This document shows, one piece after another, positions 30,189 through 35,952 of a stretch of DNA of 40,925 nt (positions within the stretch are counted from its first letter, which is position 1; each line of letters starts with the position of its first letter). The notes under the pieces are model-generated. The model ran no database searches, was not told where the DNA came from, and saw only the letters and a program-made list of their open reading frames with translations. Source of the DNA: Betaproteobacteria bacterium (GTDB lineage: Bacteria; Pseudomonadota; Gammaproteobacteria; Burkholderiales; Burkholderiaceae_C); contig JAHECB010000006.1 of the NCBI GenBank assembly GCA_024641925.1, positions 1-40,925 of the forward strand, written 5' to 3'. The translations under genes were made by a program, and so were the position numbers.

Positions 30189-30907
30189 CCGAGCCCGAAG
30201 GCCCCGCAGACACGTTCTCGCTGGACAGCCAGGAGCTGCCGTTCGAGCCGGGCCAGACCGTCCTTCAGGCGGCGGTGCAGGCCGGTCGCTACATCCCGCA
30301 CCTGTGCTGGCATCCGGACTTCGCGCCGCACGGATCGTGCCGGGTCTGCAGCGTGCTGGTCAATGGCCGCCCTGGCGCCGCCTGTACCGTGAAGGCGGCG
30401 GCCGGCATCGATGTCCAGAGCAACACCGAGCCCTTGAATGCACACCGCAAGACCTTGCTGCAGATGCTGTTTGTCGAGGGCAATCACTTCTGCCCCAGTT
30501 GTGAGAAAAGCGGCAACTGCCTGCTTCAGGCCACCGCCTACGAAATGGGCATGGAAGGGCCGCACTTCGACGAGGTCTATCCCGACCGCCCGGTGGACGC
30601 CAGCCACCCCGAGCTGTTGCTGGACTTCAACCGCTGCATCCTGTGCGAGTTGTGTGTGCGCGCCAGCCACGAAGTCGATCACAAGGACGTGTTCGCAATC
30701 GGGGGGCATGGCATGGCCACCCACCTGCTGGTCAACAGCCCCAGCGGGCGGCTGGCCGACACCAACATGGCCGCCACCGACCGCGCCGCCCAGGTCTGTC
30801 CGGTGGGCGTGATCCTGCCCAAGCGGCGAGGCTTCCAGGTGCCGATCGGCGCGCGGCGCTTCGATGCGCACCCGGTGTCCGAGCAGGTCGACAAGGAGCA
30901 GCGGTGA
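30185..30907 (+). CDS. hoxU: Hydrogenase diaphorase small subunit HoxU
   Basis: Ferredoxin-like subunit linking HoxF to HoxYH. The 240-residue protein has a [2Fe-2S] domain (Cys in PHLCWHPDFAPHGSCRVCSV and AACTV, about 38-68), a His/Cys [4Fe-4S] segment (NHFCPSCEKSGNCLLQ, about 99-114) and a further cluster region with RCILCELCVRAS (about 148) and AQVCPVG. This matches HoxU and the N-terminal part of NuoG. The GTG start overlaps the hoxF stop (GTGA), and the end overlaps hoxY in the same way. Confidence 0.95.
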   Translation: MTEPEGPADTFSLDSQELPFEPGQTVLQAAVQAGRYIPHLCWHPDFAPHGSCRVCSVLVNGRPGAACTVKAAAGIDVQSNTEPLNAHRKTLLQMLFVEGNHFCPSCEKSGNCLLQATAYEMGMEGPHFDEVYPDRPVDASHPELLLDFNRCILCELCVRASHEVDHKDVFAIGGHGMATHLLVNSPSGRLADTNMAATDRAAQVCPVGVILPKRRGFQVPIGARRFDAHPVSEQVDKEQR

Positions 30908-31476
30908 CAAGCCCCGTGCCGCCCCCGGCGCACGAGCCGCGCAAGCTGAAGGTGGGCACGGTGTCGCTGGCCGGCTGCTTTGGCTGCCACATGTCGTTTC
31001 TCGACATCGACGAGCGCCTGTTCGAACTGATCGAGCACATCGAGTTCGACCGTTCGCCGCTGACCGACATCAAGACCGTCGGCCCCTGCGACATCGGCCT
31101 GATCGAAGGCGGGCTGTGCAACGCCGAGAACGTCGTGGTGCTGCGCGAGTTCCGCGCCCATTGCAAGACGCTGGTGGCCGTCGGCGCCTGCGCGATCAAC
31201 GGCGGCCTGCCGGCGCAGCGCAACCACCTGGATCTGGCCGTGGTGCTGACCGAGGTCTACCGCAGCCGAAAGGGCCTGAGCGCAGGCAGCGCCTTCCCCA
31301 ACGACCCCGAACTGCCCTTGCCGCTGAACAAGGTGCACCCGATTCACGAGGTGGTGCATGTGGACTACTTTCTGCCGGGCTGCCCACCTTCGGCCGACGC
31401 TTTCTGGCAATTTCTCAACGACCTGATGGCGGGCCGCACACCGCACCTGGGGCATGGCCTCATCCACTATGACTGA
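30904..31476 (+). CDS. hoxY: [NiFe]-hydrogenase small subunit HoxY
   Basis: Electron-transfer half of the hydrogenase module. The 190-residue protein holds the single proximal [4Fe-4S] cluster: CFGC (about 26-29), GACAINGG (Cys about 97) and PGCPPSAD (Cys about 159). The small size, lack of Tat signal and lack of extra clusters fit the soluble group 3 type. An additional Cys in EGGLCNAEN stands where Ralstonia HoxY has Ser. GTG start in a GTGA overlap with hoxU. Its end overlaps a 19-codon frame leading to hoxH. Confidence 0.95.
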   Translation: MTSPVPPPAHEPRKLKVGTVSLAGCFGCHMSFLDIDERLFELIEHIEFDRSPLTDIKTVGPCDIGLIEGGLCNAENVVVLREFRAHCKTLVAVGACAINGGLPAQRNHLDLAVVLTEVYRSRKGLSAGSAFPNDPELPLPLNKVHPIHEVVHVDYFLPGCPPSADAFWQFLNDLMAGRTPHLGHGLIHYD

Positions 31477-31528
31477 CGCACGTTCACTGAGGCTCGATGA
31501 CAGGTACTCGATGAAAAACGCACGATGA
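31469..31528 (+). CDS. Tiny ORF 1 between hoxY and hoxH
   Basis: A 19-codon frame, MTDARSLRLDDRYSMKNAR, beginning inside the last codons of hoxY (8-bp overlap) and ending in an ATGA junction with the next tiny frame. An internal ATG at 31511 could also start it. No family match is possible at this length. It may serve translational coupling rather than make a working peptide. Confidence 0.35.
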   Translation: MTDARSLRLDDRYSMKNAR

Positions 31529-31537
31529 AACACGCCC
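31496..31537 (+). repeat. Three 14-nt imperfect tandem units in the hoxY-hoxH gap
   Basis: Units GATGACAGGTACTC, GATGAAAAACGCAC and GATGAAACACGCCC follow each other without gap. Units 2 and 3 agree at 12 of 14 positions; unit 1 is more divergent. Each unit contains ATGA, so each offers a start codon. The 14-nt period shifts frame, which is why the stop of one small frame falls on the start of the next. Confidence 0.55.
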
Positions 31538-31566
31538 TTGAACCGAGACCCCGTGAGCTGCCATGA
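31525..31566 (+). CDS. Tiny ORF 2, stop overlaps hoxH start
   Basis: A 13-codon frame, MKHALEPRPRELP, whose ATG overlaps the stop of tiny ORF 1 and whose TGA overlaps the hoxH ATG (ATGA at 31563-31566). This makes a chain of coupled starts from hoxY to hoxH. The ribosome site of hoxH alone is weak (GTGAG). Existence of a stable peptide is unproven. Confidence 0.35.
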   Translation: MKHALEPRPRELP

Positions 31567-33074
31567 CACGACCGCTTGAGACCGCCTCCGACGCCGCCGT
31601 GGCCCAGGGCCTGCGGCGCGTTGCCATCGACCCGGTGTCGCGTGTCGAGGGTCACGGCAAGGTCACGATCCTGCTGGACGCCGACAACCACGTACAGCAG
31701 GTGCGGCTGCACATCGTCGAATTCCGCGGCTTCGAGAAGTTCATCGAGGGCCGGCCCTACTGGGAGGTGCCGGTGATGGTGCAGCGGCTGTGCGGCATCT
31801 GCCCGGTGTCGCACCATCTGGCGGCGTCGAAGGCGCTGGACCATGTGGTCGGCGCACAGCCGGTCACGCCATCGGCCGACAAGATCCGCCGGCTGATGCA
31901 CTATGGCCAGGTGATGCAGTCCAATGCGTTGCACTTCTTCCACCTGGCCTCGCCCGACCTGCTGTTTGGCTTCGACTCCGAGCTCACCCGCCGCAACATC
32001 ATGGGTGTGGCTGCCGCCCACCCCGACATTGCCCGCAAGGGCGTGCTGCTGCGCAAGTTCGGTCAGGAGGTGATTCGCGCCACCGCGGGCAAACGCATCC
32101 ACGGCACCGGCTCGGTGCCGGGCGGCATGAACAAGCATGTGAGCCCTGAAGACCGCGACCTGCTGCAGCGCGACGTGACGCAGATGACCGACTGGGCGCA
32201 GGATGCGGTGGACATCGCCAGAAGCCTGCACGCGCAGAACCCGGCGCTGTACGACGGCTTCGGCTACAGCCCCGCGAACATGCTGTCGCTGGTGCGAGCC
32301 GACGGCGCCCTCGACCTCTACGACGGTGTGATCCGGGCCCGTGACCCCGACGGCACGATCCTGTTCGACGGCGCCAACGACCAGGGCTATCTCGAACTGA
32401 TCGAGGAAGACGTCAAGCCCTGGACCTATATGAAGTTCCCTTTCCTGAAGAGCCTGGGCCGCGAGAACGGCTGGTACCGGGTGGGACCGCTGGCGCGGCT
32501 GCAGAACTGCGACTTCATCCCCAGCCCGCTGGCCGAGACGCAGCGGCAGGAATTCCTGGCCTGGGGCAAGGGCGCCCCCATCCACGCCCCGCTGGCCTAC
32601 CACTGGGCCCGGATGATCGAGGTGCTGCACTGCATGGAGGTGATGGCCGAACTGCTGGACGACCCCGATATCCTGCGCGGCGAGCTGATGGCCAGCGGGC
32701 CGCGGCGGCGCAGTGGCGTGGGCGTGATCGAGGCACCGCGCGGCACGCTGATCCATCACTACGAAGTGGGCGACGACGACCTGGTCACGATGTGCAACCT
32801 GATCGTCTCGACCACCCACAACAACCAGGCCATGAACGAAGCCGTGCGCGTGGTCGCGCGCGAGCACCTGGACGGCCGCGAGTTGACCGAGGGCCTGCTC
32901 AACCACATCGAGGTGGCGATCCGCGCCTACGACCCGTGCCTGTCCTGTGCCACCCATGCCCTGGGGCAGATGCCGCTGGACGTGGTCTTGCTGGGGCCCG
33001 AGGGCGAGCCGATCGACCGCATCGTCAGGTCGGCCGAGGGTGAGCTGGTGCAGGGCTGGGACAGCGCGTCATGA
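31563..33074 (+). CDS. hoxH: [NiFe]-hydrogenase large subunit HoxH
   Basis: Catalytic subunit carrying the NiFe(CN)2CO site. The 503-residue protein has the L1 motif RLCGICPVSHH (about 77-87) and the L2 motif DPCLSCATH (about 458-466), which together supply the four Ni/Fe Cys ligands. The entry EGHGKVTILLD and VVEFRGFEKF-like HIVEFRGFEKFIEG match HoxH. The segment after CATH (about 37 residues, starting ALGQMPL) is the peptide expected to be removed by HoxW. A roughly 15-residue extension precedes the conserved VAIDPVSRVEGHG. It follows two tiny coupled frames, and its stop overlaps hoxW (ATGA). Confidence 0.97.
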   Translation: MTRPLETASDAAVAQGLRRVAIDPVSRVEGHGKVTILLDADNHVQQVRLHIVEFRGFEKFIEGRPYWEVPVMVQRLCGICPVSHHLAASKALDHVVGAQPVTPSADKIRRLMHYGQVMQSNALHFFHLASPDLLFGFDSELTRRNIMGVAAAHPDIARKGVLLRKFGQEVIRATAGKRIHGTGSVPGGMNKHVSPEDRDLLQRDVTQMTDWAQDAVDIARSLHAQNPALYDGFGYSPANMLSLVRADGALDLYDGVIRARDPDGTILFDGANDQGYLELIEEDVKPWTYMKFPFLKSLGRENGWYRVGPLARLQNCDFIPSPLAETQRQEFLAWGKGAPIHAPLAYHWARMIEVLHCMEVMAELLDDPDILRGELMASGPRRRSGVGVIEAPRGTLIHHYEVGDDDLVTMCNLIVSTTHNNQAMNEAVRVVAREHLDGRELTEGLLNHIEVAIRAYDPCLSCATHALGQMPLDVVLLGPEGEPIDRIVRSAEGELVQGWDSAS

Positions 33075-33925: not shown

Positions 33926-34780
33926 ATGTGCGTCATTTGTGGCTGCAGCAACACCGGGACGGCGCCAGTGCAGGGCGCCACGGCCACCACCATGGCAGCA
34001 ACGGGCTCAGGCGCCGACCTGCTTTACGGCGCTGGCCCCAGCCACGCCAGCGTGCCTGGCCTGAGCGCCACGCGCGCCATCCAGATCGAGACCGATGTGC
34101 TGGGTGCCAACCAGCAATTGGCCGATCGCAACCGGGCGCACTTCGCGGCGCATGGCGTCACGGCCTTCAATCTTGTGTCCAGCCCCGGGTCGGGCAAGAC
34201 CACGCTGCTGTGCGCCACCATCGCCGCGCTGCGCACGCAGAGACCGGGTCTGCCGCTGGCCGTGATCGAAGGTGACCAGCAGACTCGCCTGGACGCCGAC
34301 CGCATCCGCGCCGCTGGTGCGGCGTCGATCCAGGTCAACACCGGCCGGGGCTGCCATCTGGACGCGCAGATGGTGGCCGATGCGTTTGCCCGGCTCGACT
34401 TGCACGCGCAGGCTCACAGCCCTGCGCACGACCATGCGCATCCGCACGACCCCGCCGGTGCCCAGGCGCTGCTGTTCATCGAAAACGTCGGCAACCTGGT
34501 CTGCCCGGCGCTGTGGGACCTGGGAGAGGCGGCCAAGGTGGTCGTGTTGTCGGTGACCGAAGGCGACGACAAGCCGCTGAAGTACCCGGACATGTTTGCC
34601 GCCGCACAGCTGATGGTCATCAACAAGATCGACCTGTTGCCACATGTGGACTTCGACGTCGCGCGTTGTGTCGCCATGGCGCGCCGGGTCAACCCCGAGA
34701 TCGAGGTGCTGGAGCTCTCGAGCACGCGGGGCCAGGGCCTGTCGGCGTGGCTGGACTGGTTGCTGAAGCCGCGCGCATGA
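33926..34780 (+). CDS. hypB: HypB GTPase with internal His-rich insert
   Basis: GTPase needed for Ni insertion. The 284-residue protein starts MCVICGCS (high-affinity CxxCGC Ni site), continues through a linker without the usual His-rich stretch, then the G domain: [14 protein letters not shown] (Walker A, about 87-97), [39 protein letters not shown] and NKIDLLPH. Between [15 protein letters not shown] and LLFIENVG is a segment with six His in 15 residues (about 160-174, [15 protein letters not shown]), where other HypB have only a few residues. ATG at 33926 has a good site GAAGGA; an earlier in-frame TTG at 33911 is less likely. Confidence 0.96.
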
Positions 34781-35952
34781 ACCCGCTGGCCCACACCGCC
34801 CACCTGCCGCGCGCTGCGCCTGCGCGGGTGCTGGCCTGCGGGGCGCACCTGAAAAACCGCGCCTGCCTGATCGAAGGCCGGCGGGTGCATTGGTCGGCAG
34901 CCCACGGTGACCTGGACGACCCCGGCAGCCGCCAGGCCCTGCTGCAGTCGGTGGACTTGCTGCTGGCCCGCGCCGGCGGCCCGGTGCAGGCCTGGGCCCA
35001 TGACCTGCACCCCGACTTCTTCAGCACGCAGCTTGCCCTGCAGCGGGCGCAGCAGCTGGGCGTGCCGGCCCTGAGCGTGCAGCACCACCACGCGCACATC
35101 GCCGTGGTGCTGGCCGAACATGGCCTGGCCGGCCCGGTGATCGGCCTGGCGCTGGACGGCATGGGCCTGGGCACCGACGGCCTGGCCTGGGGCGGCGAGG
35201 TGCTGCGCGTGGGCGACGGGGCCGGCGCACAACACTGGCAGCGTCTGGATCACCTGCCGCCATTGGCGCAGCCCGGTGGTGACAAGGCCGCGCGCGAGCC
35301 CTGGCGATTGGCTGCTGCGGTGCTGTTTGCGCTGCAGCGCGGCGATGAGATCGAAGCCCGCTTTGCCCCCGTGGTGGGTGCGCCGGCCGCGCAGCTGCTG
35401 CACCGCATGCTGCAGCAGGGCCTGAACTGCCCGCTCAGCAGCAGCGCCGGGCGCTGGTTCGACGCGGCGGCAGGTGCATTGGGACTGTGCGTGCGGCAAG
35501 CACACGAGGTCGAGGCGGCGACGGCGCTGGAAGCCCTGGCCAACGATTGGTTGACCACGCATCCCGGATGGATCGCCGTCCCGGGCTCGCTGGCGCTTTA
35601 CCCGCTGGTCGGTGCGCTACTGGCCATGCCCGCACAAGGTGGCGACGCGGTGGCGCGTGGTGCGGCCTGGTTCCATGGGGCGCTGGCTGCCGGGTTGGTG
35701 CAGCGGGTCGAGGTGGCCGCGGCCGCACAGCGTACGCGGCAGGTGGTGCTGGCCGGCGGCTGCATGGCCAACCGCGTGTTGCGTGGCTTGCTGCTCACCG
35801 GGCTGCAGCGCGCAGGGCTCGAGGCGTTTGAACCGCAGGCTGCCGGTTGCGGCGATGCGGGACTGGCCCTGGGCCAGGCCTGGGTGGCCGCCTGCCGTTT
35901 ATCGGCCCAAGGGCTGGCGCATGCCATGCCCGAAATTGCAGGCGTGCACTGA
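34777..35952 (+). CDS. hypF: Short HypF (Kae1-like carbamoyltransferase domain only)
   Basis: Transfers the carbamoyl group to HypE for CN ligand synthesis. The 391-residue protein covers only the C-terminal Kae1-like half of Hyp[14 protein letters not shown] (about 75), [15 protein letters not shown] (about 98, metal His), [17 protein letters not shown] and [16 protein letters not shown] (about 318). The acylphosphatase, zinc-finger and YrdC-type domains of full HypF (about 750 residues) are absent. A similarly short HypF1 is known in Ralstonia eutropha, so truncation does not imply loss of function. ATGA overlap with hypB. Confidence 0.92.

Follow-up and report, generated by a model that had tools for sequence, protein, structure and literature searches.

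Degenerate 14-nt tandem repeats and overlapping micro-ORFs in the hoxY-hoxH spacer of a betaproteobacterial hydrogenase operon

The hoxY-hoxH junction and its operon

HoxY and HoxH are subunits of one complex. In the operon described here, 86 nt lie between the hoxY stop (31476) and the hoxH ATG (31563), and short overlapping reading frames cross them from end to end. The question raised by this locus is whether such a spacer is a device that hands ribosomes from one subunit gene to the next, or a by-product of the way in which the junction has grown. The stretch analyzed, called the window below, comprises 40,925 nt of the forward strand of contig JAHECB010000006.1 from a Betaproteobacteria bacterium (assembly GCA_024641925.1).

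The gene order in the operon is hoxF-U-Y-H, a maturation protease (hoxW, judging by its position after hoxH) and hypA-B-F-C-D-E. With starts taken from the ORF calls, overlaps of 4 nt join hoxF/U, U/Y, H/W, hypA/B, B/F, C/D and D/E; hoxW and hypA overlap by 8 nt, and hypF and hypC are separated by 2 nt. The 86-bp gap had been singled out in the earlier note as exceptional, and it is: all other junctions from hoxF to hypE overlap or leave no more than 2 nt between the genes. The hoxH start at 31563 agrees with the N-terminus of relatives, typically M..SLETA...QGLRRVAIDP. No promoter-like site was found in 31350-31650.

Anti-SD pairing was scored over 20 nt upstream, with 1000 random 20-mers of the window as background. 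The best pairing of hoxH is -3.0 kcal/mol and the random median is -3.1 kcal/mol, so that the ribosome site of hoxH, previously described as weak, is at background level. Other genes of the operon are no better than hoxH in this respect (hypE -2.3, hypA -3.4 kcal/mol). The hypF gene (34777-35952, forward strand), whose start overlaps hypB, apparently contains only the C-terminal Kae1-like part (PF17788, PF22521). A short HypF1 of a similar sort is known from Ralstonia eutropha.

The tandem array and its reading frames

Table 1. Features at the hoxY-hoxH junction, with positions in the window
Feature	Position	Strand	Remarks
hoxY, NAD-reducing hydrogenase small subunit, GTG start	30904..31476	+	Pfam PF01058, E 4.5e-28; HYD* end as in most relatives
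Tandem array of five degenerate 14-nt units, the first (31465-31478) being the hoxY tail	31465..31534	+	score 21, 0/2000 shuffles; unit 1 rank 6/81,822 14-mers
Micro-ORF 1, MTDARSLRLDDRYSMKNAR, 19 codons	31469..31528	+	25/184 relatives have their picked hoxH start at this ATG position
Extra micro-ORF, MTGTR	31497..31514	+	closes on next ATGA
Extra micro-ORF, MKNAR, in the frame of micro-ORF 1	31511..31528	+	closes on next ATGA
Micro-ORF 2, MKHALEPRPRELP, 13 codons	31525..31566	+	start slightly hoxH-start-like (rank 4/1075 ATG sites)
28 nt holding the 14-nt phase, weakly unit-like, possible units 6 and 7	31535..31562	+	shuffle P 0.023
hoxH, hydrogenase large subunit	31563..33074	+	Pfam PF00374, E 8.8e-29; N-terminus common to relatives

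The spacer is periodic. When 31465-31562 is compared with itself, 47 of 84 positions match at a lag of 14 and 33 of 70 at the double lag of 28; the best lag from 8 to 30 that is not a multiple of 14 is 10, with 30 matches in 88. The top tandem run of period 14 covers 31465-31535, and its score compares with an average of 6.8 for dinucleotide shuffles, none of which reached 21. This is the highest array score in 2917 98-nt slides of the window, where coding stretches score up to 19. TRF also detects a period of 14, at 31509-31535. Repeats of 14 nt carrying ATGA, as claimed earlier for the gap, are thus present, yet the array is larger than had been supposed, with five units of which the first lies at the end of hoxY.

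The units, about 63% alike, are CACTATGACTGACG (31465), CACGTTCACTGAGG, CTCGATGACAGGTA, CTCGATGAAAAACG and CACGATGAAACACG (31521). Unit 1 consists of the final four hoxY codons, counting the stop, and two further bases. In a profile made from units 2-5 only and run over the 14-mers of both strands, the sites ranked above the hoxY tail are those four units and one other (4086). The ATGA core is kept in 18/20 cases and the remaining unit positions in 37/50, a difference that is not significant (P 0.20). The likeness of the ATG at 31525 to the hoxH start falls to rank 6/1075 when the first four bases are removed; because of this slight resemblance, part of the spacer may instead have been copied from the hoxH start. 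So far the array has been seen in a single genome bin. It also contains, on the minus strand at 31520-31535, a terminator-like hairpin with a T run (1 found, 0.1 expected), which is probably incidental.

The account of two frames, of 19 and 13 codons, that bridge the whole gap and open inside hoxY proved exact in its coordinates, and the ATGA joins that it placed between micro-ORFs 1 and 2 and between micro-ORF 2 and hoxH are both there. Micro-ORF 1 starts within hoxY at TATGACTGA. Along the chain the overlaps are 8 nt (hoxY and micro-ORF 1), 4 nt (micro-ORFs 1 and 2) and 4 nt (micro-ORF 2 and hoxH). All three links show the spacing of coupled junctions, in which a start overlaps the upstream stop or lies within about 10 nt of it; the direct step of 86 nt from hoxY to hoxH does not. 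A second chain, absent from the earlier note, runs from ATG 31497 to ATG 31511, ATG 31525 and hoxH at 31563.

Much of this arrangement is a property of the repeat. The unit length of 14 is 2 mod 3, so that a frame opened at one ATG closes at the ATGA of the next unit, 15 nt on. The links 31497-31511-31525 exist because the 14-nt repeat carries ATGA, and micro-ORF 1 is longer because unit 2 has lost it. The link from micro-ORF 2 to hoxH is not automatic, being absent from perfect arrays of 2 to 8 units. A full chain was obtained in 111-171 of 3000 simulated decayed arrays at 10-50% change, in 362 of 5000 shuffled versions of the gap (7%) when overlapping ATG frames were required, and in 1085 of 5000 when GTG and TTG were also allowed. 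The full chain, which was chosen after the fact, is mildly unusual against chance.

The junction in relatives

HoxH was searched at three levels. In the genus, a match of some kind was obtained in 43 of 81 genomes, and in 22 of these, the own genome among them, at E <=2.2e-48; in the family, 46 of 399 genomes gave matches; from the GTDB contigs, the best 80 of 556 were used. These searches yielded 104 distinct junctions, including that of the window. The first set held 131 loci with a HoxH match of at least 400 bits, among which hoxY is lacking in six (L035, L050, L079, L099, L117, L127). For an enlarged set, loci were fetched for 27 of 36 and 19 of 20 matches that had none, and 248 of 275 loci were parsed; L213 was left out on account of a short hoxY match, and the other 26 had no usable hoxH or hoxY match.

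In kin, hoxY usually ends in CAC/CGC TAT/TAC GAC and a stop, with hoxH following within about 20 bases. The median gap is 9 nt in 103 relatives, with 19 overlaps, 37 gaps of 0-10 nt, 28 of 11-30, 11 of 31-85 and 8 of at least 86 (the gap of L120, put at 110 nt in later counts, being taken as 80). In 184 relatives the median is 12 nt, and the same classes contain 32, 56, 51, 20 and 25 junctions. An ATG within the hoxY end can itself be picked as the hoxH start, with an overlap of 8 nt, and L006, L038 and L045 are examples of the relatives counted for this in Table 1.

No array comparable to that of the window was found in the 30-300-nt gaps of relatives, where the best score is 15. The nearest kin, L062 (88% HoxH), has a gap of 107 nt that is unrelated in sequence and carries no chain, and L065, its partner in the tree, has a gap of 2 nt; the tree covers 37 of the 104 rows, and the placement of the window's own junction is not settled by it. 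Among the DNA matches listed for 398 genomes, those above chance fall either in hoxY, at query positions 1 to about 180, or in hoxH, from position 261 or so onward, and only G017 (71%) and G016 (67%) of those listed align across the spacer. The earlier note had looked to close relatives for conserved frames and ATGA junctions, and this comparison goes against a conserved device. A conserved micro-ORF or regulatory peptide was rejected as a candidate, the gap being absent or unrelated in the relatives compared.

Related palindrome-bearing inserts (ggataccgggtcgagcccggtatgaca) of 100, 176 and 133 nt occupy the gap in L090, L094 and L100, and about 1.9 kb of inserted DNA lies between hoxY and hoxH in L135, beginning with a long reading frame directly behind hoxY. 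The hoxY-hoxH junction takes up insertions repeatedly. One TGA is listed inside the HoxH match of L053, L157, L164, L166, L167, L170 and L174, which may reflect readthrough, an error or an alignment edge.

Origin of the spacer and its possible roles

The 86-nt spacer is probably a lineage-specific expansion of the junction in which the micro-ORFs are incidental. The ancestral junction would have been short, with the hoxY tail followed closely by hoxH as in most kin. A 14-nt stretch beginning at the CAC codon of hoxY and carrying ATGA would then have been copied head to tail, by slippage or unequal exchange; the copies would have pushed hoxH 86 nt off and later decayed. The hoxH start lies exactly 7 x 14 nt past the start of unit 1, and in kin with a 2-nt gap (L033, L064, L065, L084) it lies 14 nt past the corresponding codon, so that the excess length is 84 nt, or 6 x 14, if such a gap is ancestral. 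The number of copies is uncertain because the units are only about 63% alike and units 6 and 7 match weakly. The duplication events, like any translation of the micro-ORFs, are deduced from the sequence. The micro-ORFs probably arose as a by-product of the repeat, and their last link to hoxH may be luck. Some of the ribosomes that finish hoxY would most likely reinitiate at the ATG inside it and then be handed onward, which would give an incidental and imperfect coupling of HoxH and not a dedicated regulation. An intact chain is mildly unusual under this expansion, because its last link is not given by the arrays and full chains are as scarce in the decayed arrays as stated above.

A ribosome relay that sets HoxH output relative to HoxY had been proposed in the earlier note. 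It stands as geometrically possible, and some signals lean toward it; as a conserved device it does not stand. In its selected form, the chain, whatever its origin, would have been kept for termination-reinitiation coupling between HoxY and HoxH across a gap that otherwise uncouples them; this is possible, though clearly the less likely account. In the available part of Huber et al. (PMC10666635), little coupling is left in the tested pairs once the distance reaches about 20-40 nt, and 15 nt of the upstream gene suffices for it; other, older studies, quoted second-hand in the available text, found coupling over longer gaps, and a relay is perhaps unneeded. Most relatives have a short, coupled spacing, and some have the ATG of micro-ORF 1 as their picked hoxH start. 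The median pairing at the hoxH site of relatives is -5.1 kcal/mol at gaps above 8 nt (n=55) and +0.2 at gaps of 8 nt or less (n=48), which makes a site at background level behind 86 nt suggestive of a relay; against this, the site is equally weak or weaker in 7 of 19 relatives with gaps of at least 31 nt. When gaps above 300 nt (L135, L175, L275) are excluded, 13 of the 23 long-gap relatives that have the embedded ATG carry complete chains (7.6 expected, P 0.003, kinship ignored), or by set 6/10 (P 0.017) and 7/13 (P 0.070). As a control, the ATG was pretended in relatives that lack it, and chains occurred in 2 of 19 (4.0 expected; Fisher 0.003 for the contrast with 13/23). One relative, L216, has an independent chain through two frames. 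Before kinship is considered, this excess points to selection, and against expansion alone. However, once similar gaps are collapsed the excess is gone (4.4/9, with 3.7 expected, P 0.45), and only the contrast with the control remains near 0.05; the collapsing, a loose single linkage by gap similarity that merged 17 gaps into one group, may be too strict. Single bridging frames across gaps of 5-300 nt are found in 16 of 23 cases (13.1 expected, P 0.027), with the window's own outside the 16. Gap lengths that are multiples of 3 were more common with the embedded ATG (14/26) than without it (14/59, P 0.011) in the first set, but this signal was not repeated in 81 further junctions (8/16 and 21/51, P 0.57). 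The relay is also opposed by the 10 of 23 long-gap relatives that have the ATG and no chain, by the missing chain of the nearest kin, L062, by inner links that follow from the tandem repeat, and by ATGA cores whose preservation does not significantly exceed that of the other unit positions. A broader conjecture, that a tandem-copied stop/start junction forms a self-coupling spacer, kept by selection and setting HoxH relative to HoxY, with long-gap kin converging on the same end by a bridging frame from the ATG of hoxY, is doubtful.

It is quite unlikely that the spacer simply uncouples the two genes and that translation of HoxH relies on its own weak site, at a reduced or independent rate. The length of the gap and the background-level site fit such a reading, and gaps above 30 nt in 45 of 184 relatives imply that a junction can do without tight spacing; HoxH should nevertheless be costly to lose, HoxY and HoxH forming one complex, and the embedded ATG and ATGA joints offer ribosomes a route. 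Very improbable is a spacer that holds a small regulatory peptide, an RNA element or a mobile or dispersed repeat, although the frames exist and the inserts of L090, L094 and L100 show that insertions do occur at this junction. The peptide, also suggested in the earlier note, finds no counterpart, as none of the chain peptides of relatives resembles those of the window. A known RNA family or special fold was rejected, since Rfam gave no match at E up to 1 and the fold is no better than that of shuffles (z +1.05). A dispersed or mobile element was rejected as well: the spacer has no match, its pattern core (at most 1 mismatch) occurs weakly at 10 places in its own genome, two of which are the array itself, and the longest word that the gap has in common with the remainder of the window measures 12 nt.

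Should ribosomes be passed on by the spacer, it would be a natural test of whether tiny overlapping frames carry coupling beyond the range of about 20-40 nt given in the available part of PMC10666635, as well as a simple means by which an operon could tolerate insertions between the subunits of one enzyme. Were the self-coupling conjecture true, a 2-mod-3 unit with ATGA would let an operon lengthen a gap and retain the hand-over of ribosomes. If no ribosomes pass, the locus is a caution that ATGA-bearing repeats yield tidy micro-ORF chains without function.

The literature search, in the titles and partial texts it returned, brought up neither such a spacer nor any bacterial stop/start junction copied in tandem; the related titles listed concern mitochondrial genomes. 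The overlaps of 8, 4 and 4 nt are of common kinds, those of 8 and 4 nt being listed among the commonest in the available part of PMC10666635, but here three of them are strung together through two frames too short for ordinary genes and known from sequence alone. The closest precedent is the mycobacterial interspersed repetitive unit (MIRU) at start codons, in which, according to the part of PMC12548453 available, a short repeat-borne ORF shares 4 nt with the start of the gene behind it and may spare that gene from the insertion; similarly, micro-ORF 2, which opens in unit 5, shares an ATGA with hoxH. MIRU are dispersed and apparently mobile, whereas the present array is local, made from the hoxY tail and found nowhere else in the genome. 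In the minigene mg2, as the accessible text of PMC8708949 describes it, an ORF of two codons, whose end lies 15 nt upstream of txe, raises txe translation in cis, which is experimentally proven. It resembles the spacer in having a tiny ORF upstream of the next gene; the frames of the spacer are longer, overlap hoxH and have been seen at the level of DNA only. Among the relatives, a frame from the ATG of hoxY likewise reaches the hoxH start in L106, L119, L130, L132 and, by two frames, L216, with other spacer sequences that lack the 14-nt array; in L106, L130 and L132 the hoxH site is stronger than here, at -5.0 to -6.2 kcal/mol.
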